Shown here in pieces: positions 10,374 to 54,519 of a DNA stretch of 64,000 bases. The DNA is from Pyropia haitanensis (Eukaryota > Rhodophyta > Bangiophyceae > Bangiales > Bangiaceae): NCBI GenBank assembly GCA_008729055.1, contig SDUX01000020.1:1-64000 (forward strand), read 5' to 3'. Under the pieces are notes generated by a model that had not been told where the DNA came from, did no database searches, and was given only the letters and a program-made list of their open reading frames with translations. Position 1 is the stretch's first letter, and every line of letters starts with the position of its first letter. The position numbers and the translations under genes were made by a program.

Positions 10374-10469
<96 letters not shown>

Positions 10470-12206: not shown

Positions 12207-12240
<34 letters not shown>

Positions 12241-14604: not shown

Positions 14605-17434
14605 TACCATAAGAATATACACGGAGGACGTAACCCCCCCCTCTGGGACGTCAGAATCGCATGGTACGTCAGATGACGAACCCTCGATTCCAGCCGATTT
14701 GGACGAACCCTCGTCTGGACGTCCCATTGGCCGGTACGTCCGATTCGGGCCCGAGAGGACGTACCCTCCTGAGATGCGTTCTTGGGCGTCCCCCCCCCCT
14801 CCCCCTCCTGGACGTCAGATTCGCAGGTACGTCCTCCCAGGGGCGTGTCATTTTCGAGAGTGCCCCCGCCATTATTTGGTGTGCACTTCCGATTCCCCCC
14901 CCGCCCTTCCCGCCCTCCTCGCCCCCCCCGTCTATTGCTGCGCCCCTCCTTCCCCCTCCATTTTTGTCTCCCAGGCTTCCCGCCCTTCCTTTTCCCCTCC
15001 CGCCAGTCCCTCGTCCCCAACTCGGGGTGCAGCCCCACTCTCCCCCCACCCCCCCCCTTGTTTCCTATGCCCGATCCCTCGCCCCCTCCATTATTGTGCT
15101 TCCCACCTTTCCCGCGTCCCCTCCCCCCTTGCCCCTCCTCCCCCCCGTCTCCCCTTTCACCTTTCCTGTGCCCCCCCTTCCCCTCCCTTTCCTCTTAGTC
15201 TTTCGCCCTCCCCGCCCTTTCTGTACGAGGTGTGTCAGATTCCAGAGTGCGTCGTCCCCCAATTCGATGTGCACCCCCGACCTCCCCGTCCTCCCCGCCC
15301 CCCTCCCAGTCTATTGCTGTGCCCCTCCTTCCCCCTCCATTTGTGCCTCCCAGTCTTCCCGCCCTTCTCCGTCCTCTCCCGCCAGTGCCTCGCTCTCAAC
15401 TCTGTGTGCACCCTCGCCCTCCCCGCCCCCCCCCTCCCATCCGTGTGCCCCTCCCCCTCGCCCCGTGCATCATTGTGCCTCCCAGCCTTTCCCCCTCCGT
15501 GCCCGCTGTGCGAGTCCTCCCCCCCTCCTCCCCCCCAATTATCCTATGCCCCTCCTTCTCCTCCCACTTATGCCTCCCAGTGTTCCCGCCCTCCCTCGCC
15601 TCCCCTCCAGTCTTACCACCCTACCCCGCCCCCCGCCTCCACTCCCCTTCTTTGTTGTGTTCTCCCCGCCCCCTGCATTATCAGTGTGCGTCCCGGTGTT
15701 CCCGCCCCCCCCGTCCCCTTTCCTAGTCCTCCCCTCCGCCCCCCGTCCTCTCACGTCCGTGCCCCTCCTCCCCGCCCCCTGTCTTTGAGTTCTTTCCAGT
15801 CTTCCTGCCCTCCCCCGCCCCCCCCTCCCGTTTCCCCTGCTTCCTCCCCCCCTGCCCCCTGCGTTATCGTGCCTCCCAGTTTTCCCGCGCTCTCTCCCTT
15901 TTCTTATATTCCCCTGCCTCCCGCGCCTGGCGCATGCCCCCATGGCGAAACCATTCCTCCCTCGTTTCGCAGTGTCGCGTTTCCCACCCCTCCCCCCTCC
16001 TGTCCTCCTCCCCTCTCAGCAACCGGGTGCGATGCGCGGGAGAAAGAACCTTCCTCAGGATTTCAATACCGCGGGTGAGACCCCCCCCAGCCCCCCTCCC
16101 GTCGCGATATTTTTGTGGGGCTCATCGACCACGTCCCGCTTCCTATGCCTGTGGCTCCCCCTCCCATTCCCCCGAATGGCGCCTAAGAACACCTTCCCTC
16201 TCGGACGATCCAAATCTGGTGCACGTCCTTCCTCCCGAATCCCACTGTTTCCCCCCCCCTCGAGGACGTACCCCTCTCTGGACGTCAATTTCGCGGGTAC
16301 GTCCTCCGAGCCCCCCCGCTGTAAGTTCTCTTCTGGGAGGACGTACCCCTCTCTGGACGTCAATTTCGCGGGTACGTCCTCCTCGGTTGGATCCTCCCTT
16401 CCGAGTCTGTCGGGCGCCAATCCCGTGCGTTGCCCCCCCTCCACGTCTGGCTGGCTCCCCCTCCCCTAAAATATTGTCCCAGAATAAACCGCGTGTCGGA
16501 TGAACTCACCCCGGGGGCAGGCACGCTTCTCCGTGTCTATCCCCCTCGACCCTGTCGCCCCACCTCCCAAGGGCAACCGCGTGCGATCGCCCCCCCCCCC
16601 CCCCCGCCCTCAGCATTCACCTGCCTTGCCCGCATCTCATTTGGCACTCACTCCCCCAGCGTGCGCCCTACCACTTTTGGGCGTCTATCGTCGGCCCCGA
16701 GACGAGTGCGCAGCCGGCGGCTCGCCATGTCGTGGGTGTAGACGTCCCCCCTCAGCCAGCCCCTTTCTTTCACACGTGCGACTGTGCTGTTCGACCCGCG
16801 GCGGGCCATCCACCCTTGTGCTGTACGATACAAACGCGTGGTGCGCAGCCCGCCCAAACGCAGCGTGCCAACTGGTGGCGGCTGACCAGGCGCCACGCGT
16901 CATTCGAGATGGACGCGGGCTCCCGCGTGGCCTGATCCACTGCTGCTGCTCGTCCGCATCCCTGCGTGGATCTCAACGCGATCGGCAGCGCGCTGGTGCG
17001 TCCCGGTTGCGCATTTGACGTGCAATCACTTTCTGGTACACACCCTTCTACGTAAATGGATATTGTGTCACTTAATTTGTTGCTCGACACGCACGTCAAC
17101 TACGCACTTGCTCCACGTACGCGGCCGCTCCGTGCTCTCTCTGGGGCTGAAATGACCCGGTGAGCGTCCGTCAGGCGGCGTACACCACCCCCTTGCAATG
17201 TTCAAGTACGCTGACATAGGCGATTGTTGACAAAAAAGTACACAAAGGGTCGACAAGTACTATAATTTCATTTGGATGGTCGAATCAGTCAGTACACAGT
17301 CTCGCCTAAAGCCAAATTACGACGGTATTGTAAATCTTAGACGATTCGACACCCAAATAAGTCCAAAGGCGGGTCGAGTACTAGTCAGGCATGACGAGAT
17401 TGACCTTGACGTTCCGGCATGTCTGAACCGTTTT

Positions 17435-17490
17435 CAGATCCGTAGTACTACGGAACTGGGGACGCCCAGTTCCGTAGTACTACGGATCTG
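17435..17490. repeat. 26-bp perfect inverted repeat with two B-type palindromes (unit 4)
   Basis: Arms 17435-17460 and 17465-17490 around loop GACG, identical to 9561-9616. The palindromes TCCGTAGTACTACGGA sit at 17439-17454 and 17471-17486. Confidence 0.9.
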
Positions 17491-17698
17491 GGGAACCGCG
17501 GACTTTGCCGTCACACGGTTCGATCCGCTCGGTGACCGCCCCTTTGCGGCAGTCCACCAGGTCGATGCCCCAATCATTTTCTTACGACGCCGCCCTCGCT
17601 GGGCCTCCCGCTGGCCTGGCGCCGGCATTGCGCCGCCGCCCCGCAGGCTCAGCAATGCGCGCCTGCTGTGTTCTTTTCTCTCTTTCGCAGCCCGCGCG

Positions 17699-17828
17699 TT
17701 GGCGCCAAAACTACCACGACGGTTTCAAACCGTTTGGCGCGCGTGCGTTGGCGCCAAATAGACCACGTTTGTTTCAAACCGTTTGAATTCTCCCGCGCTG
17801 TCAGCACCTGCTCACGCCTGTATAAAAG
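17699..17828 (+). promoter_or_regulatory. Putative promoter of the unit 4 recombinase-helicase gene
   Basis: There are three E2F-like elements: TTGGCGCCAAAA (17699-17710), TTTGGCGCGC (17733-17742) and TTGGCGCCAAA (17748-17758). TATAAAAG follows at 17821-17828, 200 bases before the ATG at 18029. In unit 3 the first of these elements is broken by G to A (TTGACGCC). Confidence 0.5.
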
Positions 17829-18028
17829 GGTCCACCCGCTCAGCCATGACCATCCCGCCATGATCGCGCTCCCCGTCACGTCCTCACCGTCGTCGCGCCC
17901 CCCGTCTTGCTCCTCGATCCGCGAGCCCTTCCCCTCCTTTGCGGACCCCGCTGACCCTTTCCCCGCTGTCCCACCTCGTCCCTGAACCCATCTGCGGCGG
18001 CATTGCTTTTCCCCGTCGCCGCGGAGGA

Positions 18029-18247
18029 ATGGATTCCCGCTCCGCCTCTCCCGCGATCGACACAACATGGACGTCTGCGCTCGCTCCACCGGCCGTTCCG
18101 CCCATGGCACCTGCAGCGCCGCCGCCTGCTCCGCCGTCGGCTGCGGCGGTCGTGCCGGCGACCACCGAGGCGGATTCGTCGGACGAGATCACGCCGATGG
18201 TTGGTGGCGGTGCCAGTCGTCCCTCTGCTGGTGCTGCGTCGGCTAGT

Positions 18248-18340
<93 letters not shown>

Positions 18341-20077
18341 CCGCCGTCGGCACCGGCGGCAGAGGCGCGGCCGCCGACGTTGGCCGACAGCCCCGGCTCT
18401 GCCGCGGGGACCCCCACTGGCCTCGCGCTGTGGACGACCACCGCGTGGGTGCTATGCGTGCCGTGCGACACGACCATCATGGACGCGGCGCAGCTCAAGC
18501 ATCATCTGTCAACGCAGTCGCACAAGTCGGCTCTGCGCAAGCTGGTGGCTGACAAAGAGACGGCAACCACTGGGCAGGGGGGCACCGATGTGCGGTCGCC
18601 GCCGTCGTCGTCCAGCAAGGCTCCGTTGCCGTCGGCGACCGTCGAGAGCGCTCGCGAGCTTCTTTCTTCCCCGCCGCGGCCTGCGCAAGTGGCGCTTCGC
18701 GAACGCTACCAGCTACATGCGTGGCCGGCGTCGGTGACCGCGACGCACCTACCCCGTATTCCCCACCTTTCCATCCGCCCTGATTTTTCAGTGTGCTACC
18801 AGTGCCACACTGTGGCGCCGACGGCCAGGCTACTCACCCGCTTGCACCAGGTGCGCACCGACGCGGAAGGCGCCACCGCTTGTGGTCTTCGCTCCTACCA
18901 CATTGCGCACGTGCAGTCCCTGCAGCGTGGCAACAAGGTTTCCCTCTTTCCCGTGGTCATTTCGACCTTTACCACTGCCGCCACCGCCGCCGCTGCCGCC
19001 GCTGCCGCTGGTGTCGCACAGGAGGGCGGCGGCGGCGGCGGCGGCGGCAGCACTGGCGCCGCCGCTGCAACGTCGCAGGCGGCGATGCCCAAGCGGGTCT
19101 CGTCTTCGATTCTGCCGCTCGACGTCTTTCTGCGCGGTCCTCGCACGTCCGCCAATCCGGCCCGTGGTAGCAGCGCTGGGGGCGGCGCCGGCGGCGGCGC
19201 CGGCGCCGGCGGTGACGGCGACGGGTACCCGTTGTCGACGTCTGGAGAAACAGCTGACAACCAGTGTGGCGGACTCCTCCAGCAGTACCGCTTCCACGAG
19301 GACCTGTCTCGACTGCACTGGACCGCGGCGGGCGTTGCGCAGCACTTTGGCCCATTCCTCCGTCGAGTCAGCCGTACGGCGAGCGCTGACGTGGAGAACC
19401 GCGGTGCGACTCTGCCCCCGTCTGGCGCGTTTTACTTTGCGTGCATCCAAGACGCTGTCCTGTCCCTGTTCAACGATGCGTTGAGCTACCTGCGCAAGTC
19501 GGACCAGACCACCCTTCTCAGCCGCCTGCGCATTGGGCAGACGAGCGACTTGCAGCTGCGGCGGTTTAACATCCACGTCACCAAGCCGACGCTCGTCCGC
19601 TACGCCCGAGACGTGGCCATTGTACTGTACGTGACGCAAGAGCTGGCGGCACTCGCCGACCGCCCCGCTGCCGCCGCCCTGGAAGCGGACAACGCGTCGG
19701 TCACTTTTGACCGCGAAACCCAGCTGGCGGCGCTCAACATGCGCGACTCGTACAGCACTCACGCTGCCAGCGGCCTCCGGCGTTTGCGGTTGCGGCGGCA
19801 GCGGGCGCAGCGGGAGCCGCAGCAGCAGACCGGCGGTGAGGAACTCTTCCCTGGCCAGGACGACACGACGGTGCTGGCCAATAGTCTTCTCGTTCCGGCC
19901 GTCAGCTCCTTATTGTCTGCACTCTGTCACGAGACGTACGACCCACGGCTGAGTCACGTAGGTGGCGAAAACAAGCCGCGGTGCGACCTGGCCCTTGCCA
20001 TGCCTTTTGTGTCGGTCGCGTACGCGTCCGGTGGGCAAACGAGTGGGTTGGACACCTCCTCTGCGGTGGCAGTCGGA

Positions 20078-20111
<34 letters not shown>

Positions 20112-23100
20112 ACGACGACAATGACAACGACGCGCGTGATGCGCAGAACGCCGCCGACCACTGCTCGCACATGAGCGCGACCGCCGGTGGTCACCTGGCG
20201 ACATCCCTCCTGTTTGCAACCCACATTGTCAACACGCTCTTTTTCATGAACGTCCCCACCGGGTCGGTTGAAGAGTCGTTTGAGCGCATCGCGATGGCGA
20301 CCAACCCAACGTCTACGACTGCGGCGGCCTACATTGTGCAGCTGTCCGCGTCATGCGAAGCGATCAGTCGGTCCGAGACGGTAGCGCCAGCGTTTATCCC
20401 GTGTGACGACCCCTCTCACCTGCCCGCCGGCGCTCCGCCTGGCGCGGTTTGTGGCACGCTGCTCCACCGTGGCCTTCACATGAGCACCGCCACCGTCGGT
20501 GCGCGGGTGAGAGCGGCTCAGCGGGAGCTCGGCGGGCTGCTCCAGCAACTCACCTTTGGCTACGACCCCACCGGCTCTGGCTTCTACGCCCAAGCCGTAC
20601 AGCTGATCGACTCGCCAAACGTCCAGTCGCCCGGCGTCTCCTTCCTCGAGCTCCCCGTCAACGCCCGTCTCGTCAGTGGCTGGCGCAGCCACATGATTGC
20701 GTCTGGGGTGCTCGACTCGCCCGACTGCCCGTGTCGCAGTCAAGCCGTCAGAGCGAGACCCGGGTGTGGAGGAGCTCGACCTGACCGCCCCGCCGGTTGT
20801 AACCGACGCTGCCAAGCTCCGCACCTGGCGTCAGCTCGCCAACCGCTGCCGGGCGCTCATTTGGGCGATAACCCACTGTGTAGGCGGCGCCCCTGCCCGC
20901 ATGACAGAGTCGGCTGGCGTGCGCCTCTGCGCTTCCTCGGCCCGCGCCCATCGGTCCGTCTTTGTCCACAACGGGCTGGTCTACACCGTCATCACCTACT
21001 GGAAGGGTCAAGTCGAGCGCCAGGGTACCGGACGGCCTATTGTGAGGTGGCATGACGCGCCGTCGTCGTCCCTCGTCATCCAGTACCTCGTCTTTGTCGA
21101 GCCGCTCGACGCCTACCTAAGCCGTGCTGTAGACCCGGCGGCGCCCTCTTCCACCCTCATTGGCGCCGGTCATGGCGGCGCCATCGACCGGGCGCTCCTT
21201 TTCCGCGACGAGCGCGGGCAGCAGCTACAGCCGCGAGCCTTGACCGCCGCCCTCGCAGATGACCTCCTTCTCCGCGTCTCTACCCTCCCCATTACCGTCC
21301 GTGTGCTTCGGCAGTATATCAACGGCGTCGGCCGGCTGATCGCCGACTTTGACCCTCTCGACCCAGCCCTCGGCACGCCGGCCGCCATCGCGGCCCCACC
21401 GGGGGGGGGCGTCGCCGCCGCAAGCGCGTCGGTGCGCACGCCTGTCGAGGGCCTAGTTGCCTGGGGCCGTGTCCTTGACGCGCAGATGGGGCACACGAGC
21501 GCAACCGCCACCACCGCCTATGCCAGCGACCCGACGCACACGTTTGGCGCGCTCAACAACACCACCTACAGCCTCTTTCGCATCTTTTCTACCCGTTGGC
21601 ACGCCGCCCTCGGGTTATCGTCTGCCCACGGTACTGGCGGTCTGACACATCCTCTGAGCATCCAGACGGCAGATGCTGCTGCGGCCGGCGGCGCGCCGGC
21701 CGCCGGCGCGGGTGGGGGGGGGGGGCGGGCGGTGGCATCGCCGTCGCCAGCGACAGCAGCTGCTCAAGGGACAACAACCGGCGGCGGTGGTGGCGCGGGA
21801 GCTGGCGGCGGCGGCGGCGGCGGCGGCGGGGCGACGACTGCCAGCGACGCTCGCAATCCCGTGAGGATGAGCAGTGTAGCCGGCAATGCGGCGGTCAACG
21901 AGTCGCTGAGCCGCATCGTCCGCCCCAACAGCGGCGACGCACGCCGTGCCGTGGATGCGGTCGTCAGCTCTTTGTATGGGACGCGCATGTACAAGTCCGA
22001 CGCCCAGCGGACGGCTGTACACACGGTGATGGTGGCGCGCGAGCCCGTCACGCAGCTGGTCGTCCTCCCAACGGGTGCGGGCAAGACGCTGACGTTTCTC
22101 GCTCCCTGTCGCGCCGGCGTGGATGCTGCCCGGTCGTGTGCTTTTGCATCGGCGATGGGAACGTCGACGGTCGTCCCCGTTGGATCCCATTTCGCCCCTC
22201 CCGTAACAATCGTCTTGACGCCCACCCGAGCCGTGTCGGGCACCATCCTGTCAGCCGCCCGTGGCATGGCCATCCCCACCGGCGTCTGGGCGCAGGGAGC
22301 GGTCCGCGGTGGGGGGGAGCGTGCAGCAGCGCTCATCGTGTCGGACATTTGCTCGGCCGTACACCATTTGGCAACCTTTCGCGATTTGATCCGTCGTCTC
22401 GACCAGGACGGTCGTCTGGCACGTCTGGTTGTCGATGAGGTCCACCTGGTGCCGCTGTGGTCTACCTTTCGAACCCACCTGTCGCACGTGCGCAACCTCT
22501 TGTCGGAACTGCCGTGCCCGCTGCTGCTGCTCACCGCCACCGCGCCTGCGGGTCTAGTGACGACCCTGCTGTCCGCGGTCGGCACCAATGCCAACCGGCC
22601 GGTCGCAGTCATCCGCGCAGAGAGCAGTCGCCGGTCCAACATTCGCTACATGGTCGAGCCCATCCACGAACCGTACGTCCGAAGCCCCGGCCGAGGTGCC
22701 AGCGACAAGCTTCACGCCGCCGTCGCCACGCGCGTCATTGAGCAGCTGCATCGGATCAAGACGGCACTCGTGGGTGGAGTCGATTCCCCTGGTGAGCGGG
22801 CGCTCGTGTTGGGCGTCTTTTGCGAGATGATTGCCGAGGTGACGGGCGTCGTACGCGCGCTGTACCGTCAGCTCGAGAGCGTCTCATTGGGGATCGACTC
22901 GCATCGATCCGACGTGGCTGTCATCATGTTTCATGCAACCGAGACTTCTATTGGTTTGCAGGCGGGGGGGGGGGGGGGGGGGGGGGGGGGCGGGGCAGCA
23001 CAACCCCCCGCGGCCGCCGCCCCCGCCGCCGCCGTCAACGATGCAACCTCGTCGTCGCGCCCGTTTGTCGTGGTGAATGTTTATCGTGCGGGGAGCCTGC

Positions 23101-23131
23101 GGCACCATGAGCAACTGCAGCGGCCGCAGCC

Positions 23132-23190
<59 letters not shown>

Positions 23191-25448
23191 GCCCGATGCG
23201 GCCTGGACAAGCGCCCGCAGGGAGCAGCGGCGGCGGCGGCGGCAGCGGCGGCCGCAGCGGAAGCTTTGCCGGCTTGAGGGACTTTACAGAGGACACGGCA
23301 GCGAGCGACATTGTTGACCGCGTGTCTTTGCACGCTGGGATGGGCGTCGTCATTGTCGTTGGCTCTCCCGCTGTATCGACGGGCACCGACTTTCCGTCCA
23401 TGCGGTGGTCCTACCATCTCGGTTCCCGCAACCTGCTGTCGTTTGCTCAAGCGTCTGGCCGCATTTGTCGGTCGGATGACCTTGTCGGCACGGCCGTTGT
23501 GGTCAACCCCGTCAACTATTCCGAGTCTTTGGCCGACGCACGCACCCACGAGCGCGTACCGGCCATGTCGTCGTTGGGAAACTTTGACGAGTGGGCAAAG
23601 CTGCCGGGCGACCGCTGCCGACGCTACGGGCTGGACGCCCTCCTTGATGGCGCCACCATCGACACATTTGTGTCGTGCAAGGAAGGCAAGTTTGCTCCTT
23701 GCGACTTTTGTGCGCACCCGCCCACTCGTCCGACCGTGGTGCGCGTCAAGCGAACTCGTCCGCCTCCCCGCCGGGATGGGGATGAACCAGACGAGGACGA
23801 CGAAAACGACCCGCACGGCTTTGGAAGCAGCCGCCGTCGCCTCTTTCATCCCCCGGGGTGGGGTGCGGCGGCTCGTCGCCGCACATCCTACTCGTCTGGC
23901 GCCTCTCGTCATGGCGCAGTGGGACCTCCGGCCTACTCGCCTTTGGGCAGGACGGCGGGGATGACGACGACGACGACGACGACAACGATGATGCGCGACA
24001 GACTCTTTGACTATAGTGATGGGTCCCTGTCTGCCGGGGAGGAGGAGGAGGAGAAGGAGGAGGTGGTGGAGGAGGACGAGGCGGATGAACCACGACGAGG
24101 ACGCCCAGCCGGGACAATGCCGCGTGTGTCGTCAGGGACACCTCCACTGCCACCATCACGACAGAGACGACTCTTCCCTGGCATCAACCGGCTCAACTTT
24201 GAGCGTCCTACTCCTCCTCCTCCTCCTCCTCCTCCTCCTCCCTCTCCTCCTCCCCCTCCTCCTCCCCTTCCTCCTCCTCCCCCTGCATCATCATCACGCC
24301 ACCCCCCCCCTCCCCCCCCTCACAACGCCCGCACTCCCCCCCTCCGCCCTTGCCCGTCCGCCCTTTCTTTCCCTGTCGAAGAGGACCCGTCGCAACTGAC
24401 GTTGCCACTGGCGCAGCCGCCGTCGTCGCAGCTGTCTTCGCCTCCGACAGCCGCTGGGAGGATGCGCCGGCAGTCGCCACCGGTTGCCGCCGGCGACGAC
24501 GTCGCAACCGACGACGACTATACAGACGTGGACGAGGACAAAGACGACCACCCTGTCGCGGCGGCGGCGGCGGCGGCAACGGCCGGTGTGGTTACGACGG
24601 CAGAAGGGATTGACAGGGCAGCGCTCGCCGCCGCCCAAATGACGTCGGACGCGCTCGAACGGGGCACAAGAGCGGCGTTGGCCGTCTGGGCGCACGCAGA
24701 TGGGGCCCCACACTGGCCGTGCGCGTGGTGCTGCGCCCAGTCGCGCACATCGCAGCCGGCTGAGCGGCACGGTCCGGCGTCGTGCTTTATCCGGACGTGC
24801 ATGGTGTGCGTGCGGCCGTCCTCGTACAAGTACGTGGCAAAGTCGTCACCTCTGTCGCCGCAGGTTGCTGCGGCGGCTGCGGTGGAGCGCTCGCCCTCTA
24901 CCGCGGCGGCGGCGGCGGCGGTGGCGGCCGGCACATGCGGGGTGTCTTCCCGAGTGTGCAAGACTCAGCCTCCGCCGTGGAGTCGCGACCGACGCGGACA
25001 CGGGGATGGCGGCTTTGACACCCGTTGCCATGCGTGCTTTCTGCCTCGCACAATCCGCTCTGTTGACGGTATGGCTTTGGACTCGCACCCGCTGGGCCGA
25101 TTCGGGCCGGCCCGATGCCCGTGGGTGTTTGTTATCAAGGTGGCGCTGCTGCAGGTGGCCATGGCGCGTTCCTTCATGTCCCCTGACAAGCGTGAGTTTG
25201 CTCCCGCCCTCGCGCACGCTTGTGCGGTCACGTGGGCAACCCAGTCTGACAGCAGTCATGACGGTTGCCAGGCTGTTGCGTCTGCCGTCAGTGAGCGCAA
25301 CATCCCACGTCGATTGCTCGACTGGGGACCCGCGGACCGACCGTCGGCTGTTGACAAGGTGGCGAAATGGCTGAGCGGCGGCACTCGCTTGCCGAATGTG
25401 GTGCTGTTTGCCCCCATCTTGGCGCGCGCGTTTGGACTCTCCTTTTAA
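18029..25448 (+). CDS. C2H2 finger / tyrosine-recombinase-like / RecQ-like helicase protein, B type (unit 4, +1 frameshift)
   Basis: The first frame runs from ATG 18029 and stops at 21055; the second is used from about 20755 to TAA 25446-25448. A +1 shift gives about 2470 residues collinear with the unit 5 protein. The first frame has a C-x2-C-x12-H-x5-H finger and a run of about 33 Pro. The second has a recombinase-like block R-V-L-R-Q, then G-H (His 21492-21494) and Tyr 21519-21521, nine residues apart as in phage-type integrases. A superfamily-2 helicase follows: Walker A P-T-G-A-G-K-T at 22074-22088, T-P-T-R, DEVH at 22434-22445, T-A-T-A-P, and Q-A-S-G-R-I-C-R from 23448. A C-terminal Cys-rich zinc-binding region ends the protein. 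Likely role: element mobility or telomere-linked DNA processing in the nucleus. The shift is also present in unit 3, so it is inherited and may be programmed. Confidence 0.8.
20753..20759 (+). promoter_or_regulatory. Candidate +1 ribosomal frameshift site GCG-AGA-C
   Basis: In the first frame the codons are GCG (20753) and AGA, the latter rare in these GC-rich genes. Skipping the A continues in the second frame as GAC-CCG-GGT, which leads into sequence collinear with the unit 5 protein. The heptamer resembles the Ty3 +1 site GCG-AGU-U. Unit 3 has the same bases at 12882-12888. The exact place of the shift is a guess; both frames stay open for over 100 bases around it. Confidence 0.3.
22964..22990 (+). 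repeat. Homopolymer of 27 G inside the helicase coding sequence
   Basis: It encodes a poly-Gly linker between the helicase motif blocks. Such a run should slip in replication and sequencing, so the frame downstream depends on its exact length. In the given sequence the frame stays open. A (CAG)n run coding poly-Gln follows at about 23140-23190. Confidence 0.85.
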
Positions 25449-32695: not shown

Positions 32696-32731
<36 letters not shown>

Positions 32732-36717: not shown

Positions 36718-36730
36718 CCTCCCCCCCCTT
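36718..36730 (-). promoter_or_regulatory. Polypurine tract of the retrotransposon
   Basis: AAGGGGGGGGAGG on the minus strand touches the 3' LTR and overlaps the pol stop codon TAA (36731-36729). It is the expected plus-strand primer in reverse transcription. Confidence 0.8.
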
Positions 36731-39700: not shown

Positions 39701-40265
39701 GATCTTCCGACTGCAGGTAGATGGCAAAAACAGGGCACCTTTGAACGAGGTCCCGAGCAAGGCGTTGCCGACTGATCAGAGCTTCGGGCTTCTTGAGGGA
39801 GGCAGTGATAGAAATGTTCTTGTGGTTGAACTTGAAGGAGATCTTGTTTTTCTTGTTGTTGATTTTGGCGTCCTTGTCATCGCGCCACTTCTTTCCCAGG
39901 ATGAGGTCGTACGCGCTCAATTCACAAACAGCAAACCGAAGTCGCTCTTGGTACGGTCCGATGTGAATCTCAAGAGGGTCAACGGTTTCAGCGAGGACAT
40001 GGGAGCGGCCATCGGGCATGCTTGCCGCGAAGTCCGTTCCTTTCGTTTTCACATGCAAGGAGGTAACGAGGCGCCTTGAGACGACGTTGATGGGAGATCC
40101 GTCGTCGAACAGCACCTTAACAACTTTTCCATTGACAGAAGCAGTAGAAAGCAGAAGCCCGAGTCGCGGGCCTTCAAATGGTGACGACATATTTTCAGGA
40201 ACCGAAGGAGCGTCTTTCACAGATGTTGAGGATTGTTGCTGCTTCAGTTCCGCTGGCCTTTTGGG
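36729..40265 (-). CDS. pol: Pol polyprotein: protease, reverse transcriptase, RNase H, integrase, chromodomain
   Basis: The frame is open from 40271 and stops at TAA 36731-36729. It overlaps the end of gag by about 28 bases in the -1 frame; the first ATG is only at 40190. The protease has F-D-D-G-S rather than the common D-T-G or D-S-G. Reverse transcriptase has Y-L-D-D at 39063-39074. RNase H has V-S-T-D-A-S-G and H-T-D-H-E-S-L. Integrase has an H-H-C-C finger ending C-D-L-C and D-D-E core segments (M-D-F-I-T-P-L, V-V-D-R-L, T-E-I-M-N). A G-P-Y module and a C-terminal chromodomain (Y-L-V-K-W-K-G) follow. No stop or frameshift breaks it, so the element may be autonomous. Chromodomains of this class steer integration to marked chromatin. 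Confidence 0.93.
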
Positions 40266-41122
40266 CAGTCCTTAGCCATGTGTCCTTTCTCGCGACAGCG
40301 AAGGCAGAGACCCTCGCGCATGCAGCGCTGGCGTTCGTCTGGCGTCAGCTTTTCGATCTTGATGCTGGAAATGTCCATCGGGACAACGCCCATCGTCGGT
40401 GGCTTGCCAGAAGTGCTGTTAACATTGCTGGTGATACGGGACACTCCAGCCTTGGCCGCTTCCACGCGCAGGGCGTCCGTCATCAGTGATTCAAGATCGG
40501 TGTACGTCTTGAGGCACAGTGCCTGCCAGATGTCGCGCTTCAGGCCTCGGCTATAGCGGTCGATCTTTTCCGCTTCGGTGATGTCCGGGATGTCCAAGAG
40601 GACGCTCAGGAAAGTCCTGTTGAACGTCCCGACGTCCTTGATTTGGCGCCATGAGTGCAGCTTGTCCCGCGCCGCCTGCGTCTTGTTCAGAGGGCTGAAG
40701 CGACGGATGAGCGCAGCCCGAAAGGTAGCCCAGTCGGGGACCGCCGTCGTCCGACTGTAGGTATGCCACCAGGTGAACGCTTCACCGTCCAGGTAGGTGC
40801 AGGCGATCCGACACGCTTCGTCAGGGTCAGTCAGTCGCACATATGAGTCCATGTGCGAGCACCATGCTTCAATTGTCCCGGGCTTGCCAGAGAACAGTGC
40901 GGGCTTATTCGGCCTCGCAGTCGTCGCGCCTCCACTCGAGGCCTTAGCCTTGGCGTCGGACAGCTGTTTCTTGGCGTCCGCCAATTCAACCTTATGAGCC
41001 TCGAGCTCGGCGCTCATCTGCGAGACGAACGCTGTAAGTTGATTCCATGACTCCGCGGAGGGTGCGGTTGAGGCCGTTCCCGGATTAATCGGGCTTACAG
41101 TCGCAGGATTCGGGGGGTCCAT
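40244..41122 (-). CDS. gag: Gag structural protein of the retrotransposon
   Basis: The start is placed at the ATG 41122-41120 (M-D-P-P-N-P); the frame is open further upstream but without another ATG. The 292 residues contain a coiled-coil-like stretch ([16 protein letters not shown]), a retrotransposon gag domain ([11 protein letters not shown], then R-F-S-P-L-N), and one zinc knuckle [14 protein letters not shown] near the C-terminus. It forms the particle and binds the RNA. The stop TGA lies at 40246-40244, just after the slippery site used to reach pol. Confidence 0.9.
40259..40265 (-). promoter_or_regulatory. Slippery heptamer C-CCA-AAA for -1 gag-pol frameshift
   Basis: In gag codons the sequence reads TGC-CCA-AAA-GGC, which fits the X-XXY-YYZ rule in the correct phase. 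A -1 slip enters the pol frame, which is open from 40271 (stop TAA at 40274-40272). The heptamer lies inside the 28-base overlap, four codons before the gag stop. Confidence 0.75.
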
Positions 41123-41486
41123 TGCGTCCTGGGTGAGGTCCGCAACAATCAAATTAACCCAACAGAGCCGGTTTGACTTACTCCGGCAGAGCACGGGGCA
41201 AGTCTTACAAGATGTGCAAGTTAATTTGACCAAGCAAAATAGTGCTGCACTAGCTCTGGACAAGCGTGGCCGTCGTGGCTACCACGTTTCCAAAGATGGA
41301 CAACACTATTTGATGGGTCACAAGCGATGCGATGAAGCAGAATTCGAAGACTCAAATCACGCAATCGGATTTTCCCGCCGGCCGCCGCGCACGGGCCCGA
41401 GTCGGGTCGTGCCGGATTTCCACGCGGGGGGATCAAAGGGGGAAAATCGCGTCTCTTGCACAGATCCTGGGGGGTGTTGCGAGGTG

Positions 41487-42284
41487 TCAGTCGGTGCGGC
41501 GCGCCAGCGTGCGGTGGTGATCCTTGCCACGCTGGTGGCGTTCGAAGTGCTCGACCGTCTCAAATTCGCGATCGCACACGTCGCAACGAGGGCGGGTCGC
41601 TGGACGGTTGACCGTATTGCGGTGGCGCCGCGACCAGCGATGGTCGCGCAGCACTGTCAGGCTGTTGCAACGCACACCGCACGGCTTGCAAACGTATTTG
41701 CCCTTGGGGATGGTCTTGGCGATCCGGCGCTGCTCTCGCTGCTCTGCTGCGCGCGCGGTCGTCGGTCGGATGTGGCCGATTCGTGGGGCCGGCGGCGCGA
41801 TGTAGCGCCGGGCCGGATCCTGCGCGGGCAGCAGCAGGCGCCGGTTGGCTGGGACCGCCGGGCCTGACGTGGCCGGGCCCTTACCCTTGCGCGAGAGGGG
41901 GGGCTTGGATGCGGCTGGCGCCGCCGATGCGGCCGTCGCCGCCACAGCGGATGACGTGGATGCGCCCGCCGGGGTGCCACGTGCCGCCGCGGTGTCGCGC
42001 GCCGCCGCGATGCCGCGCGCCGCCGGGGTGCCGCGCGCCGTCGGGGGGCGCGCCGTCGCCGCCGAGGAAGTCGGGGCGTCCGCCAACGCCGAGGAAGAAA
42101 ATTCCGAACCTGATTTGGCACTCACTGGGTTTCGACAATCAGTCGACCAAAAGAAAAAAACCGTGACAGGGGCCACCAGGGCAGTGTCAGGGCAGTGTTC
42201 TTTCGGTGTGATTCGTGGAACCCGCTGCGTTCGTATTACAATGCCCGAGGCACGCCGAACACAGGGGGCAGCACGAGTGCACAA
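41487..42284 (-). CDS. Accessory frame upstream of gag with two C2H2 zinc fingers (no ATG)
   Basis: This frame of about 265 codons lies between the primer-binding site and gag. Its first part is Ala/Thr/Pro-rich. Its end has two fingers, both C-x2-C-x12-H-x5-H (Y-V-C-K-P-C... and P-R-C-D-V-C...). It contains no ATG, so it may use a near-cognate start, be joined by splicing, or be a decayed captured gene. Well-kept finger spacing argues that it was coding recently. The spacing equals that of the finger in the recombinase-helicase proteins. Extra frames before gag are unusual in Ty3/gypsy elements. Confidence 0.45.
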   Translation of the reverse strand: MCTRAAPCVRRASGIVIRTQRVPRITPKEHCPDTALVAPVTVFFFWSTDCRNPVSAKSGSEFSSSALADAPTSSAATARPPTARGTPAARGIAAARDTAAARGTPAGASTSSAVAATAASAAPAASKPPLSRKGKGPATSGPAVPANRRLLLPAQDPARRYIAPPAPRIGHIRPTTARAAEQREQRRIAKTIPKGKYVCKPCGVRCNSLTVLRDHRWSRRHRNTVNRPATRPRCDVCDREFETVEHFERHQRGKDHHRTLARRTD

Positions 42285-42350
42285 ACACAGGGAGGGCCAA
42301 ATCCAGGACGGAATCGCAACGTCACCGCCAAGAGGAAGTCAAACTATCTG

Positions 42351-42359
42351 AAGCTACCA
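42351..42359 (-). promoter_or_regulatory. Primer-binding site, initiator tRNA-Met type
   Basis: On the minus strand, two bases after the end of the 5' LTR, the sequence is TGGTAGCTT. Its first seven bases match the start of the Ty1 primer-binding site for yeast initiator tRNA-Met, as I recall it. Confidence 0.6.
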
Positions 42360-42361
42360 CA

Positions 42362-43223
42362 TGTGAGGCACCACCCACACCGGGCAGCCCTCAACGTACT
42401 GGTGCCGGTGTCAGCAACCCGTGCAAGCCAATGAGGATGCCGGGCGCGGGGAAGGTGACGGGTGGGATGACGGTGATGGGGGTGGGGAAGAGGATGGGCG
42501 TGACGTCGGTGAGGGTCGAGGGGGTCGAAGGTACAGGAGGTCTTTGTGTCTCTGTCTGTGGTTGTTCCCCCGAGGTCTCTCCCGGTGGCGCCCACACTCA
42601 CGCATTATATACCCCCAGGGGGGCACCCAGGGTGCCCCAAAGCATGCGATTGCCCGTCGTGCCGGTGGACGGCACCAAAGCTCTCAAAACAAAGCATGGG
42701 CTCTCAGAACAAAGCAAGGGTGGGCGTGTGCGCCCCAAGGCGCCCCACCAGAAAGCCCCAAACGGGGGGGGGACGGTGTGCGGCGCTCGTAGCGCCGCGC
42801 GGCTGGCCCCACGCGCCATTCGACCCGAAAAGCCTCAGAGGCGTGTAAGCAGACGCCAGTCTTCGGGTCGAATATCTCCCGTGGGTCAGCAAGTCTTGTC
42901 GCTCCCATTGGTCCACGGGGAGATTGTTCCGGCTTGCTGACGCGTCAGAGATGTGGCTCGTCTTTTGGTCCGTTAGTCCGTTGATCCGTTGGAGACTGTA
43001 CCCGTCGGCAGATGAGTCAGGGTAGTGTCGGTTAGCCAATCCGCGGCTCCCGTGCTGACCGTCCGTTAGTAGTAGATTATCGGACGGACACCGCGGCATG
43101 CCCCAGATTACTTTGGAGTTGATGCGTCTTGGAAGGAGTTGGCTGAGAAGGACAGGGAAGGAGAGGCCCCAGTCCTTATCCCCTAGGCTCCAGTCTTGGG
43201 GATTTAAGGGGCATATCCTTACA
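42362..43223 (-). repeat. Right LTR (5' LTR of the retrotransposon), 862 bp
   Basis: It appears identical to 35856-36717. The promoter TATATAA lies on the minus strand at 42605-42611. It is followed on the + strand by the target duplication ATGAG (43224-43228). Confidence 0.95.
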
Positions 43224-43228
43224 ATGAG

Positions 43229-44029
43229 GTGCAATTTGTTTCGCACACCACGTACAAGATGCCGCCCGCAAAGAGCTTCTTCGTCATGTCGTCTGGGGCG
43301 GACGGCTTTGTGCTTGTTGTGTGGCCAGGCAGCGTGCTGGTCGCTCGTCGGCTGGAGGAAGGGGACCAGTCCAAGCGGGTCGTTTTGCCCGAGATACTGG
43401 TCGTCCCGCCCAACTCGGCTGTCATCTTGCGCGCCGACTTGGTCCACGCCGGTGCTGGAGCCGAAGACGACCGAGTGCGGCTGTCTGGGGTGGCACCCGC
43501 CGAGATCAAGTACAAGCGCAGCGTCCGGACGCACATGTACTTGACGCATCCGGACCACACCGTCCAAGACCGCGTCTTCCTCGTCGACCCGGACGTCTTT
43601 GTGACGGACGAAGCGGCAGCGCGGCGCCAAGGCGTCGCAGATGCCGAGGCCGGTCTGGGTTCTGCCCGAATGGCCAAGCGGCCTCCTGACGAGGACAGGA
43701 CGCCTTCACCCAGTTCGCGGTCGCCTCCCCGCCAAGACGACACCTCCCATCTTCCGCGGACTGACGCGGAGCAGCCGGCCGAGGCGACGTCTCCACGGGT
43801 GCCTCCTGGGGGGGCTGCCGAACCTCCTGCGGCCCCTCCCGAGATGCTGGATCCCAACCCACCGCCGGTTGTGGAAGAAGAAGGCAGTTCTGTGGCGCCC
43901 TCCCCGCCGCAACCTCCGACTACGTTGGAAGAGTTGCCTGAAGAAATGCCCGCCGATGAGTACAACCCGACGACACCTGACGACTATTTCTACGAAGACT
44001 TGGGCGACATGGACGGGCGGTTTGAGTAG
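43229..44029 (+). pseudogene. ParB-like/dioxygenase gene, separated 3' part (unit 4)
   Basis: The frame resumes with V-Q-F-V after the retrotransposon and runs to TAG 44027-44029. It carries the second half of the dioxygenase fold: distal His in L-V-H-A-G (43445-43447), candidate 2-oxoglutarate Arg in V-R-T-H-M-Y (43526-43528), and the acidic Pro-rich tail. It is nearly identical to 2379-3179 in unit 0. Without its own start it is probably not expressed. Confidence 0.85.
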
Positions 44030-44092
44030 ATCCATCGATGGAGATTGCGTCTCGCTTCATCTTTGTTCTTTTTCTGGATGTGTCGAGGTCTC

Positions 44093-45458
44093 TTCCGTAG
44101 TACTACGGAAGTGTCATGGAATTTTCAATGAGTCGGAGTTTTTTTGTGTTCGCCAAGTATCCTTGTACTTGCCAATTTCGGACATATTTGGCCCCCCCCA
44201 GTTGGTCCGAGGGCGACTGACCCAGCGGGCGAGTTCCGTAGTACTACGGAAGCGCCATGGAATTTTCATGCAGTCGGGGTCATTGTGTCTTGGCCAAGTA
44301 TCCATGTATTTGCAAGTGTCGCACAGATTTACATCCCAATTTGGTCCAAGGGCCACCTGCCCGGCGGTCGAGTTCCGTAGTACTACGGAACAGCCTTACA
44401 GCTGGTGGTCTCGGCCCACGCATCCGTGGTGATGTCTGTCGGCAGCAAATTTGTAGAAGAGGGATGACGGCATGATTTCGAGCCGCGGCAGGCTCGCGCT
44501 GTCGAGGTGGCTTCCGTAGTACTACGGAAGCGCCATGGATTTTGTATCCAGTCGAGGTCATTGTGTCGTGGCCAAGTATCCATGTATTTGCAAGTGTCGC
44601 ACAGATTTACATCCCAATTTGGTCCAAGGGCCACCTGCCCGGCGGTCGAGTTCCGTAGTACTACGGAACAGCCTTACAGCTGGTGGTCTCGGCCCACGCA
44701 TCCGTGGTGATGTCTGTCGGCAGCAAATTTGTAGAAGAGGGATGACGGCATGATTTCGAGCCGCGGCAGGCTCGCGCTGTCGAGGTGGCTTCCGTAGTAC
44801 TACGGAAGCGCCATGGATTTTGTATCCAGTCGAGGTCATTGTGTCGTGGCCAAGTATCGGTGCATTTGCAATTGTCGCAAAGACTTATTTCCCAATTCGG
44901 TCCAAGGGCCACCTGCCCGGCGGTCGAGTTCCGTAGTACTACGGAACAGCCTTACAGCTGGTGGTCTCGGCCCACGCATCCGTGGTGATGTCTGTCGGCA
45001 GCAAATTTGTAGAAGAGGGAAGACGGCATGATTTCGAGCCGCGGCAGTCTCGCGGACGTGTTGAAGTCCCTTTTAGTCGGCCAAGTATGGGTGTACGTGC
45101 AATCTTCGCATGAACGTTGGTCTCACTTTGGGCACTAGGCCACCCACGCAGCGGGCGAGTTCTGATCTACTACTATGGATGTGCCCTCACCCCGGTTGTA
45201 ATGGCTGGTGCGTCTTTGGGCATGTCTGTCAGCAGAGAATATGTGGGAGGGCGATGAGGGTGTGATTTCGAGCCGCAGCGATGGTGTGTCGGCCAGGTCG
45301 CTTCCGTAGTACTACGGAAGCGCCATGGAATTTTCAGCAAATCGGGGTCACAGTAATGTTGTCAAATACCATTGTAGTTGTAAGTAGTTGCTGTATTCCG
45401 GTCCCAAATTGGTCCCAGTGCCACCCATGCAGTCGGCGGGTTCCGTAGTACTACGGAA
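44093..45458. repeat. Array of B-type palindromes spaced 139 bp, within 278-bp tandem repeats
   Basis: TTCCGTAGTACTACGGAA stands at 44093, 44234, 44373, 44512, 44651, 44790, 44929, 45302 and 45441 (start positions). Six successive steps are 141, 139, 139, 139, 139 and 139 bases, and the last pair is again 139 apart. A decayed palindrome lies at 45160-45179. Two alternating spacer sequences make a 278-bp unit with near-identical copies at 44234-44511, 44512-44789 and 44790-45067. The array fills the gap between the dioxygenase and methyltransferase genes; no gene lies in it. Confidence 0.92.
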
Positions 45459-45582
45459 CCCCGACGCACCCGTCTGTCTGTCGCCGTCAGTTTTGATCCG
45501 AATCCGTGAGATGTGAAATAGTATGCATTCATTTAACGACCCGTATTCGTAACGTGTGCGCGTTTTTTGGCGGCGGAATGTC

Positions 45583-45589
45583 TATTTAA
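45583..45589 (+). promoter_or_regulatory. TATA-like element before the methyltransferase gene
   Basis: TATTTAA lies 144 bases before the first ATG (45733), in the AT-richer stretch that follows the palindrome array. Confidence 0.35.
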
Positions 45590-45732
45590 TCGGTGCCTCC
45601 GCGTCGCAATTGTCACGTGTGTGGAGAGAGGACGCTCGCCGTGTACTCTCACGATTTCAGCCCAAGTCACCCGTGTCCTCGTCCGTAATCAACCGGACAG
45701 TATTCGCCGTGTCTCTCTGCGTGCCTGCGGGG

Positions 45733-47207
45733 ATGCAAGCGTCGGCGTTGATCGACCGAGTTACGGAGCAGTCGCAGGTGGTCTGCAATGCAGTCCGGGA
45801 TGCAGCCGCGGCATCCCCAGCTCAGTTTTATCCTGCCGGTGTCGTGTGCGCGTGTCTTGCCGATCTTCGGGACTTGCTCGTCACTTCCTCGTGGTTCGCA
45901 CTTCGTGCTCGAGGCGATTCTGCTGGTGTAGAGCCGTCTGTGGACTTGTCCGACGTGCGGTGGACGGAGATGGTCAAGTGGACGGTGACCCATTGCCGGA
46001 ATCTTCCCGGGCAGCCTCGGACACCGCACGGTGTCAGCACACGCGTGATTGGCGTGACGGCGAATGGTGTGGAGCTAAGACTCACCCCATTGACGGCGTG
46101 GATGGACGACCCTGTTGCGGAGCGAATCTACGCCGCCGTGTGGCGACTCAAGCCTTTTGTTGCCGCCAGTGGCCGTCTGCTGGGTACGCGTGGCAGCCAC
46201 GTCGTTTTGGCGTTGACGCCTTCTCCAGACGTGTCGGACAGCGCAGGCGGCGCTGCTGAACAAGTCGTGACCAAGGTGCGTGTGCAGCAGCGGCAACATC
46301 CTCTGGACGTGAGGGCGTGGCAAGTGGTTCTTGCCGTTACCGGGCAGCAGCGGCGCTTGCAAGAATTGTGCAGCGTTGTTTCATCGCATCTGCACTGTCT
46401 TCGGGGCGGTGGGGGCTGTGCTGCGTCTGTGGTTCGATCGTCTGGTGAAGCAGCTGGCGTGCCTTTCGCGGCACCCGTCGTTCGGTCAGCCGAAGCAGAT
46501 CTTGCGCTCGTCGTACCAGCTGTGCGCATTCCGGACGACATTTTCATGGCAGTCGTCATTGGAGGAGGAGTTGCCGGTACTACCCTGCGGGCGGAGCAAC
46601 CTCTTCCGGCCCGTTCTTGGAGCGATGAAGCTGTTCGTTTGGCCACTACGGGCGCGACATCGTTTGAGATTGTTCTTTGGCTGTCGCTAACTCGGTTGGT
46701 GGTAGCAGCGTCGTCGCGAGGGCTCCCCTCCGGATCAACCAAATCGCGGACCGACGCGCGTAACACACCGACGGCTGTCAGCGCACATGCTGTGGCGTCG
46801 GAGCAGGTGCTGTCGGCCGCTGCAATGATCCGAGATGTGGTGCGCTCCGTTATCAGCGGGTGGGACGCGCTTGCGCGGGATGCTGGCTTTGCAACCGTCG
46901 AGGCTATGGTCGCTCCGTACCTTGTTTGGAGTGCCCGCTCGTGCGCGTACGCGGCACTCGCTCGACCTCTCGACCGACTGGCGTTTGCCGCTCGCCATTT
47001 GGAGTGGGACCTGTACCACTCGTGTGGTAATCCTGTGAGTGGTGCCGCGGTGTGGGATTCGGAGCGCGTGAGCGAGGCGGTTGTCAAGCGGAGCTGTCTG
47101 GCCGACGAGCAACTTCGGCAGGTTGCTCACGGACTGCTTGAGCATCTGCACTCGTGCACGTCCGTCGAGAATCTGGCCGAGCTCGTCCGCGAAGGGAGAC
47201 GTCAGAC

Positions 47208-47257
<50 letters not shown>

Positions 47258-47864
47258 GGGTACGCGGACAGGGCTCAGTGGCGGAATCGAGTGGCGCTCG
47301 TGCTGGAGCGGCAGCAGGTTCCGGCTTGGCGGTGGCGGAATCGCAGCTGTCTAGCACCGGCAAGCGGCCTGTGCAACGTTTGGGTGCGTTGACGGTTAGT
47401 CGGTACCGGCCTCCGGCGTGGAGTGGTGAAGCAGGGACGGTCCCCCGGGTGCTCCGGAATGTGAGGCTTGGGCTCACTGCCTTCACTGTCGACGGCGGCC
47501 GAAAAGCGGCGCTGCTGTCGGCGCCTGCGTTGGCGCCGTCGCTGTCGGGAGCGGCGGCGGCAACTACGCAACAAGTTGGCAGTCTTCGTGCCGGCTCTGA
47601 TCCCGCCGCCAGACGCAGTTCTCCGAGCGTGACCGCCACCGGCCGCCAATCCTCCCGGCATGCTGGCGACCGCCCATCGCGTGCTCGGGCGGCGGCGCTT
47701 ATGACCGAGTCGGTCGCTATCCGCCACGTGCGACGGGTTCTGGACTCTGTCGTTCGCACTTATGTGTGTCGCTTTGAGCAGTTGCTCTATGTGCACGACG
47801 CGCACAACGATGCGGGGATGGGTCAGCGGACCGGCAGTGAAAGGAGCAGCAGCAGCGGCAGCAC

Positions 47865-47895
<31 letters not shown>

Positions 47896-49310
47896 AGTCT
47901 GTCAAGCAGCGGGAGCGATGGTGCCCGTGGCGGCCAAACTGACAGCGGCAGTCAGAGCCGCACCGGTCGCTACAGGGGCAACAACAGCAGTGGCAGCAGC
48001 GGCACTGTCCGTCCTCGTTTGAGTCGTAGGCCATCATCCGCAGGCGCAGGAGCAGCTGCCGCAGCAATCGGGGGCACCCTGGGCATCGCGCAGCCGCTCG
48101 TCGGGCGAGTTCAACTGGTGCTGACCGACCCTCCGTACAACATCCGCCGACTGAGTGGTAAGGAGTGGTCCGACCACGACACGCTGTCTGACGTGGACAT
48201 GCGCATGTGCGTCGACCTCTTTCGTTCGCTGCTTCGTCCGGGCGGGCACTTGCTGCTGTTTTGCTCACCTGAGCAGCACCCGGTGTGGGTGAATCTTCTT
48301 CGCGCGTGTATGGACATGGACGGGCGTCATCCAGCGGGCGGCTTGGACGACGAAGAGGAATCACAGCGTTCGGGCAAGCGGCGCCGTGGGGCGGCGGGCA
48401 AGCGGTCGTCCCTGTCGGGCGTTGCGTCGTTCCACGTGGATTCGGCTCCCCTCCTCATCGTCAAGGACCCGCACGCTTTTACTCCTCAGCGGCGGAGCTC
48501 GACCAACCTGTCACGCAAGGTCGAGTATGTTCTACACGCGACTCGAACGGGCGCGACTGCGCAAGACGCGTACGAAAGCGTCAACTACCGGACATTCAAC
48601 TCTGTGCCGTCGCGCTTTCCTGCTCATCTCAACGTCATTGACAATGTACGGCCGCCCCTGTATCACGAAGTGGTTCGGCGAGAAGGCCACGATGGTGACA
48701 AGCGCACCCGCAAGTGGATGCGGCCCGAGCAAAAGTCGTTGGCGCTGATTGAGGAGCTCATCCAACGTTTCAGTCAACCTCGAGACCTTGTCGTTGATCC
48801 GTTTTCGGGCACCTGCGTGACGGCGCTGGCCAGTCTCAGCATTCCCATGGGTCAGTACCGTCTGGCGGTATGCTGTGATGCAGACGCTGCTGTCATCGAG
48901 TCGTCGGCTCCTCGACTACGTCGGGCTGTCGTGGATCAGCTCCGCATTGGTAACTTTTGCGGGTTGGCCAAAGACTCGGAGGAGGCAACTGTGTGGGCAG
49001 AAGCGGCCCACTTATTGGCTGTGCTCGGACAGGATGGGAGCAGTGACGGCGGTGGCAGTCGTGAGGGCGGTGGTGGCACGAGCGTCGCCGGTGTAGGGCG
49101 CCGCCCAGCAGCATCCCCCGAGGTGACCGTCGTCGGCAAAGCTGTGTCTACAGCAGTTGGCAGCCGCGGTGATGGGTCAACTTCTGTTGCAGGCGTGGCC
49201 AGCACAAATGTAGTTGGTGCGGCGGCGGCGGCAAGTTCTCCATCCCTGGGCTGTGTGGAGTCTGCTGCCGGTGCGGATGGGCGACTCGGGCCGCTTTTTG
49301 ACTTTGCACC
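45733..49310 (+). CDS. Large protein with beta-class DNA amino-methyltransferase domain (3' truncated)
   Basis: The first ATG is at 45733; the frame is open upstream from 45556 without ATG. The first 780 residues match nothing I recognise and contain a poly-Ala run and Gly/Ser-rich linkers. The catalytic domain has D-P-P-Y at residue 799 (48127-48138), then R-P-G-G-H-L-L-L-F, a region around F-T-P-Q-R-R-S-S-T-N that may contact the target, and D-P-F-S-G-T at residue 1022. The order motif IV, then target region, then motif I is that of beta-class N6-adenine/N4-cytosine methyltransferases, mostly known from bacteria and phages. Truncation by unit 5 comes after 1192 residues. The frame then runs 27 codons into the unit 5 leader and stops at 49390-49392. 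All recognisable catalytic motifs are kept, so activity is possible. Confidence 0.75.

Positions 49311-51660: not shown

Positions 51661-51704
<44 letters not shown>

Positions 51705-51839: not shown

Positions 51840-51870
<31 letters not shown>

Positions 51871-54487: not shown

Positions 54488-54519
<32 letters not shown>

Follow-up and report, generated by a model that had tools for sequence, protein, structure and literature searches.

Known departures from telomerase in keeping chromosome ends rely on retroelements, satellites or recombination. HeT-A and TART as well as the Penelope-like terminons form head-to-tail terminal arrays in which a constant end is attached and the distal end is variably truncated. 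The yeast Y' elements encode a helicase and lie in tandem at chromosome ends, where complete units are separated by telomere repeats. A eukaryotic instance of a bacterial-type N4 DNA methyltransferase equipped with a chromodomain is the rotifer N4CMT. Among the fungal telomere-linked RecQ helicase (TLH) genes, UTASb is reported to contain an OrsD domain (PMC10532341), and another source gives no domain beyond the helicase core for the fungal subtelomeric RecQ (PMC7473861). Here, we describe the repeated units of a DNA element in the first 64 kb (the window) of contig SDUX01000020.1 (C21; 162,539 bp) from the Pyropia haitanensis assembly GCA_008729055.1 (52.9 Mb, 136 contigs). We propose, with a probability of roughly 55%, that such elements live at, and probably build, the chromosome ends of this bangialean red alga: their left end would join chromosome ends and their own repeat would cap them. 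No description of such an element was found in the literature searched, which covered titles and abstract openings and left subscription papers largely outside.

Two diverged families of units, A and B, are arranged head to tail and have three genes in the common order HEL, PBD and MT (tblastn, C21 and C53:1-90000). HEL combines a zinc finger, a tyrosine recombinase and a RecQ-type helicase; PBD is ParB-like and dioxygenase-like by motifs alone; MT encodes a beta-class DNA methyltransferase and a SET domain. Each unit consists of a fixed left terminus, these genes, palindromes (core GTAGTACTAC) grouped into two or three clusters, and an outer family-specific G-rich repeat containing TTAGGG. 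In either family the palindromes are concentrated in the HEL-PBD and PBD-MT intervals, with 13 counted in A and 14 in B, and none was found in 71 kb of adjoining host-like DNA. The first-pass annotation had described repeated modules across the window behind a shared left end, TAAGAATA(TA)CACGGA. Self-BLAST of the window and contigs confirmed the modules (3597-6731 matches 49309-52442 at 99.6%, and 6730-14604 matches 14603-22476 at 98.4%), and the left end was found at five window sites, in its A form at 3305, 3597 and 49309 and in its B form at 6730 and 14603. The described order of helicase, ParB/dioxygenase-like and DNA methyltransferase genes with palindromes between them holds in both families by tblastn on C21 and C53. 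The units starting at 14603 and 49309 had been taken for copies of one module; they do have the same gene order, but tblastn identity by stretch (37-65% for the helicase, 51% for the methyltransferase domain and 27-49% for the ParB/dioxygenase-like gene) separates them into the two families. The former had also been read as continuing with palindromes and the methyltransferase gene, which is present there but cut at 49308; the complete gene ends in SET. Strict alternation of A and B units was ruled out, as A-A and B-B neighbours occur in the arrays.

Across the genome, 37 left ends were found, 11 as exact copies of the A pattern and 26 within three mismatches of the B pattern. Thirty were read together with their upstream sequence, seven B ends on C16, C62 and C134 being left out. 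All 30 begin at the identical base (CCTAAGG or CCTACTA), 28 with CCTA, one with CCTG and one with CTTA, and the upstream sequence varies by site, except that C14 and C32 have one joint in common. For 26 joints the unbroken target is known, because what lies upstream is a unit, repeat or long terminal repeat (LTR) known intact elsewhere; the target of C21:69650 was judged by eye against L095. The joint count leaves out C7:3880324, C53:74162 and C89, which have no empty site, and C32, whose joint repeats that of C14. All 26 joints have CC in the target and 20 have CCT (10/10 in A, 10/16 in B), compared with base rates within units of about 0.095 and 0.018 (binomial 3e-27 and 3e-30), values to be read with the limit that not all joints are independent because two share one LTR site. 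At one A joint, on C124, the joined sequence itself is CTT. In the six B joints with CC instead of CCT the T is supplied by the element, so that the overlap appears to amount to two to three bases, and to five at one joint. CC(T) looks like a short stretch common to target and element and not like a set word in the target. It is the left terminus that is joined, the targets carry CC or CCT, and the DNA that was once distal to the joint is missing. A second exception to the varying upstream sequence concerns C118:6380 and C124:22016 (L036, L039), where a B end and an A end, respectively, lie at an identical point within LTRs of one type.

The opposite end behaves differently. Three arrays were read completely (C21:1-77652, C53:1-74162 and C14:7070-35850), and at each of their 12 internal joints the preceding unit is cut, at varying points, and the next left end abuts directly. 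No remainder of a cut unit was found further out in these arrays. Nested insertion with a retained remainder, which was considered as a candidate, was ruled out for these arrays (0/12 internal joints). Complete units continue into family-specific tandem repeats of 30-33 bp, G-rich and containing TTAGGG, with the G-rich strand pointing outward. The B satellite (satB, 33 bp, GTTAGGGTTAGTGTGTGTTGTGGGGGAAGTGTC) has 193 forward and 42 reverse exact copies, the matches listed lying on C14 and C21; the A satellite (satA, 30 bp, AAGTGTTTTAGGGTTGAGGCGTATGAGAGG) has 148 forward and no reverse exact copies, the matches listed being all on C14. The satellite reaches the contig end in five cases (C14, C21, C62, C78 and C114), where the assignment of C78 and C114 rests on 80 bases of contig end judged by eye together with an MT match. 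At a sixth complete right end, in the first piece of C14, it meets a 406-base gap. The satB tract at the end of C21 is about 12.3 kb long. On C14, satA starts at 53560 and the last 1.5 kb are satA-like again, part of the interval in between having been read. Homology of the two satellites was considered and is not claimed: both contain AAGTGT..TTAGGGTT, which hints at it, but a score as high was reached by 43 of 1000 shuffles. Neither (TTAGGG)4 nor (CCCTAAA)3 was found in the assembly by a pattern search that skips simple repeats.

The position of the arrays points to chromosome ends. Left ends occur on 15 contigs, ten of which (C7, C14, C16, C32, C53, C57, C89, C118, C124 and C134) have non-element DNA inward and the array out to the contig end; C16, C89, C118, C124 and C134 are known only from sampled stretches. 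On C7, a contig of 3,894,733 bp, the array forms the final 14.4 kb, and C60, C62, C70 and C100 consist of array wherever sampled. For comparison, 22 other contig ends were sampled over 200-300 bp (both ends of C1-C6 and the starts of C7-C13, C15, C17 and C18, which are not known to be whole chromosomes). P. haitanensis is reported to have five chromosomes (PMC13208050), and its linkage groups, also five, match the haploid number (PMC4578236).

A 689-bp tandem repeat was seen at C14:1-7069 (read at 1-1000 and 6900-7069), C32:10016-13000 and C57:109000-111135 (L074, L052, L050), in each case followed directly by a B left end. It also occurs at seven of the 22 other sampled ends (C1, C2, C3 twice, C8, C10 and C17) and is probably a subtelomeric satellite.

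In HEL-A the recombinase residues are R1122, K1157, R1271, H1325 and Y1334 (numbered from 50300), and this R-K-R-H-Y set, which we take to be the catalytic set of tyrosine recombinases, is identical in nine of nine helicase relatives (HEL-A, HEL-B and P0001-P0007). Against the PDB, the HEL profile matched RecQ best (5.8e-11), followed by RecQ5 (4.5e-10) and BLM (1.1e-7), and it also matched WRN. The match to an OrsD-type finger is weak in HEL-A (6.7e-4 and 20.5 bits for a fragment, 16.7 bits for the whole protein, cut-off 26.6) and reaches 2.1e-6 in one relative among eight members scanned. The window copies of HEL-B have a frame change near 20.74 kb, and the C14 copy lies within an open frame of 2675 aa.

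MT belongs to the beta class, with PF01555 above its cut-off and the DPPY motif preceding FxG, presumably the order of that class. The complete MT-B on C14 (L070:2399-7273) comprises 1625 aa and has a C-terminal SET domain (PF00856, 27.7 bits against a cut-off of 22.4), while the A copy scores just below the cut-off (20.8). Among the relatives P0013-P0017, SET passes in P0017 (24.3 bits), is weak in P0014 (15.6) and gave no match in P0013, P0015 and P0016. The motif RSTPHTF terminates both P0015 and P0017. If active, the methyltransferase-SET fusion would unite DNA and histone methylation in one protein.

In PBD, the string YVTVDGHHRQ resembles what we take to be ParB, and HxD...H...R presumably reflects a dioxygenase pattern. 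Searches of Pfam, NCBIfam and PDB returned no meaningful match for PBD, in which only the motifs are visible, and a link to the TET/JBP genes mentioned in the first-pass annotation is not supported. The relatives of PBD-A are two hypothetical proteins of Pyropia yezoensis (72% and 54% identity); these are the only named relatives returned for the window proteins, so that a bangialean red alga, and not the fungus previously assumed, is most likely the host. Inside the PBD-B frame, about seven direct repeats of 138 bp (33366-34295) encode a 46-residue repeat rich in proline, alanine and glycine.

Copies were also sought genome-wide; the HEL and MT counts, for which copies were grouped by us from matches, are lower bounds. 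HEL has at least about 32 copies (52 matches), namely 28 on the 15 left-end contigs, one of a third family on C126 and three inside large contigs. MT has at least about 13 (19 matches), nine on the left-end contigs and one each on C78, C114, C126 and C11; C78 and C114 end in the element's own satellite, and the C126 copy lies beside the third-family helicase. HEL and MT, the two of the three genes covered genome-wide, thus do not occur mostly apart from each other and from a shared left end, as 28 of about 32 HEL and 9 of about 13 MT copies lie on left-end contigs. The suggestion of a eukaryotic, multi-gene, telomere-associated element with a finger-recombinase-helicase and a beta-class DNA methyltransferase is supported, and the observation is larger than the one first described, which took no account of the split into two families, the SET domain, the satellites at the right ends or the joining at CC(T). 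The third, diverged family stands on a 124-kb contig (C126:30340-32610 and C126:65798-66541; HEL 37-45% and MT 60% identical), and bases 11-70 of this contig resemble the 689-bp repeat by eye. Diverged relatives of HEL, PBD and MT are also present in public assemblies (P0001-P0007, P0010 and P0012-P0017), and the gene families are therefore wider than this genome.

An attached fixed end, a variable end pointing outward and nothing beyond the joint are, by analogy with the telomeric retrotransposons of Drosophila, the geometry of terminal addition and erosion. In the mechanism that we propose, the left end of a free copy would attach to a chromosome end, eroded or broken, that has a strand ending in CC(T), be it element DNA, subtelomeric repeat, LTR or host DNA. 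Joining might proceed through the tyrosine recombinase and the helicase or through CC-primed synthesis, and the data fit both alike; the CC(T) overlap would suit a recombinase with a very short core as well as priming by a 3' end in CC(T). The satellite of the joined copy would form the new tip and erode until the next joining, and the methyltransferase-SET and ParB/dioxygenase-like proteins may mark, silence or partition the array. The satellite is likely to serve as the cap; capping itself, the existence of a free copy and what PBD and MT do are inferences. A tentative extension, which we hold to be possible without giving it even odds, is that chromosome ends in Bangiales are kept by recombinase-RecQ elements and not by telomerase alone, or at all, with one-ended CC(T) joining, a telomere-like satellite and a methyltransferase fusion and ParB-like protein that mark the cap. 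If true, a DNA element that has a site-directed recombinase and brings the joining as well as the cap would represent a new kind of chromosome end. The host is a cultivated alga with sequenced relatives, in which the proposal is directly testable.

Several points weigh against terminal elements of this kind. The placement of the arrays at chromosome ends is read from contig ends, the majority of the array contigs are short, and repeats are where assemblies break in any case. None of the 22 other sampled contig ends showed element or satellite beyond short GC-triplet matches. On C21, the last B fragment ends at 77652; beyond it come 71 kb of host-like DNA and then, at 149015, a B right end truncated on its left side, with satB after it. 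The intervening 77653-149014 (L010-L017) is very GC-rich (74-85%), has no N gap and contains some ORFs that resemble ordinary genes, and a fusion, a translocation or a misjoin are the candidates for this exception. Interior HEL relatives are present on C6, where both of the two contain a stop, and on C8, where the frame is open and the identity 33%, and an interior MT on C11 is a degenerate piece with one stop; old or divergent relatives can therefore be interior. The C8 relative, a recombinase domain in an open frame at C8:1935109-1937268 inside a 4.8-Mb contig, is perhaps an interior-living relative or a domesticated gene. The PBD domains are based on motifs, and the structure model of PBD-A has a pLDDT of 36. 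Telomerase (PF12009) gave one weak match (18.6 bits, cut-off 25), in which the 521 bases read are GC-rich and of low complexity, and absence of the enzyme is not claimed. Finally, the telomere unit of P. yezoensis was estimated as TTAGGG from reads (PMC3594237). The TTAGGG reported for P. yezoensis and Porphyra umbilicalis comes from reads and its terminal position is unproven (PMC3594237, PMC7046594); the latter describes red algal telomere information as mostly missing or fragmentary, with the terminal position of candidates still to be confirmed (PMC7046594).

Four other explanations have to be weighed against this proposal. The units could be subtelomeric passengers, i.e., Y'- or TLH-like repeats spread by recombination or break-induced replication, with telomerase keeping TTAGGG beyond the end of the assembly. 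Assemblies often lose telomeres, and this alternative, which we find unlikely, is favoured by RecQ helicase genes at fungal chromosome ends (PMC10532341, PMC7473861) and by the TTAGGG of P. yezoensis reads (PMC3594237). However, homologous spreading does not explain a base-exact left end joined to unrelated sequences with two to three shared bases (five once), and it leaves unexplained why family-specific satellites are the sole thing found outside complete units.

An ordinary tyrosine-recombinase transposon, whose circles integrate at CC(T) and also into one another and whose subtelomeric distal remainders are later lost, appears improbable. The conserved recombinase residues speak for it, and so do the Cryptons, which are described as having short direct repeats on either side and as presumably using circular copies (PMC3212892). 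On C14, moreover, satB and the 406-base gap are followed by an A unit from position 3314, close to the break at 3132 on C21. Yet the left neighbour of the C14 B unit is the 689-bp repeat and not A:1-3132, and the 12 internal joints are all of a cut unit with a left end, none of a right end or satellite with a remainder.

An assembly artefact, in which collapsed or chimeric repeat contigs mimic terminal arrays, is very improbable: small contigs, noisy satellites near contig ends, the C14 gap and the odd C21 join would suit it, but not the same left termini on 15 contigs, the CC(T) overlap seen at every one of the 26 resolved joints, the 3.9-Mb contig C7 or PBD-A at 100% identity in another source (P0008, taken to be Logan assemblies). 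Endogenous viral or fungal contaminant DNA deserves hardly any credence even though phages and giant viruses commonly carry genes for ParB-like proteins and DNA methyltransferases, as no relative of the helicase (4 pattern matches) or PBD (40) was confirmed in IMG/VR contigs and none of the helicase in GTDB contigs (14), the helicase had no match in plasmids, no capsid, polymerase or packaging gene was recognised among the ORFs scanned, and three contigs join the array to a repeat present at other contig ends of the genome.

The features of the window are collected in Table 1. The retrotransposon nested in PBD-B is a very recent insertion, with LTRs of 862 bp showing no differences and a 5-bp target duplication, ATGAG. 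It has an extra C2H2 zinc-finger ORF (41490-42338, minus strand) upstream of gag.

Table 1. Features of the 64-kb window; HEL-B, PBD-B and MT-B are bounded as stop-to-stop frames.
Feature	Coordinates	Strand	Basis
Distal part of a B unit with the 3' part of the ParB/dioxygenase-like gene; cut at CCT of B, where the next left end joins	1..3304	+	98.8-99.0% to 33470-44163 (self-BLAST, match 1-3307, LTR retrotransposon excluded)
A-family left-end fragment, 292 bp, cut at CCT	3305..3596	+	Self-BLAST, joint analysis
Fragment of an A unit with left end, leader and HEL-A 5' part; A position 3132 is the last before the cut, which lies at CC	3597..6729	+	
Fragment of a B unit with left end, leader and HEL-B 5' part; B position 7841 is the last before the cut, which lies at CC	6730..14602	+	
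B unit with three genes, left end CCTACCATAAGAATATACACGG; right end cut at CCT before SET domain	14603..49308	+	
HEL-B: zinc finger, tyrosine recombinase, RecQ-type helicase	17864..25445	+	DEAD 7.5e-11; tblastn to HEL-A
Palindromes, core GTAGTACTAC, between HEL-B and PBD-B	26810..27964	.	
PBD-B: ParB-like motif region and dioxygenase-like region, split by LTR element; remainder from 43219	28314..35855	+	
Ty3/chromodomain LTR retrotransposon nested in PBD-B; separate insertion, outside the unit proper	35856..43223	-	LTR comparison
Palindromes within and flanking tandem repeats of 278 bp, in the PBD-B/MT-B interval	44097..45454	.	
MT-B: beta-class N6/N4 DNA methyltransferase, cut before SET domain	45553..49308	+	PF01555 2.4e-13
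A unit, left end CCTAAGGTAAGAATACACGG; extends to C21:69649	49309..64000	+	
HEL-A, open: OrsD-like finger, tyrosine recombinase, RecQ-type helicase	50789..57919	+	
Palindromes AGTAGTACTACT / AGTAGTGCTACT, between HEL-A and PBD-A	58111..58930	.	
PBD-A: ParB-like (YVTVDGHHRQ) and dioxygenase-like (HxD...H...R); ORF runs on to C21:64026	59380..64000	+	

Compared with known systems, the helicase is closest in kind to the fungal TLH genes (Ustilago UTASa/UTASb and the subtelomeric RecQ of Agaricus bisporus), which likewise place a RecQ-type helicase gene at chromosome ends, and a telomeric role is therefore more credible. In contrast to TLH, the helicase here forms one protein with a recombinase, and its gene shares a unit with two others; this unit has a fixed left end, joins at CC(T), brings its own satellite and resides in a red alga. 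TLH genes adjoin canonical telomere repeats, whereas here none was found, with the caveat on simple repeats given above, and non-canonical satellites take their place. Unlike Y' elements, the units are truncated on the right and abut directly. The telomeric retrotransposons are alike in array geometry, with the chromosome-end position here based on contig ends; they differ in that neither a reverse transcriptase nor gag was recognised within the unit, RVT_1 being found among the ORFs scanned only in the nested LTR element, and in that the genes point outward. Cryptons resemble the element in their recombinase residues and in a short sequence common to both sides of the joint, but they have repeats at both ends, whereas here the right end is variable and the completely read arrays hold no target remainder. 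As to the KDZ transposons linked to TET/JBP genes, no transposase match was obtained in the unit ORFs scanned. With the rotifer N4CMT, the element has in common a beta-class enzyme joined to a chromatin-related domain; here, this domain is SET instead of a chromodomain, and the gene is carried on a repeated, apparently mobile element.

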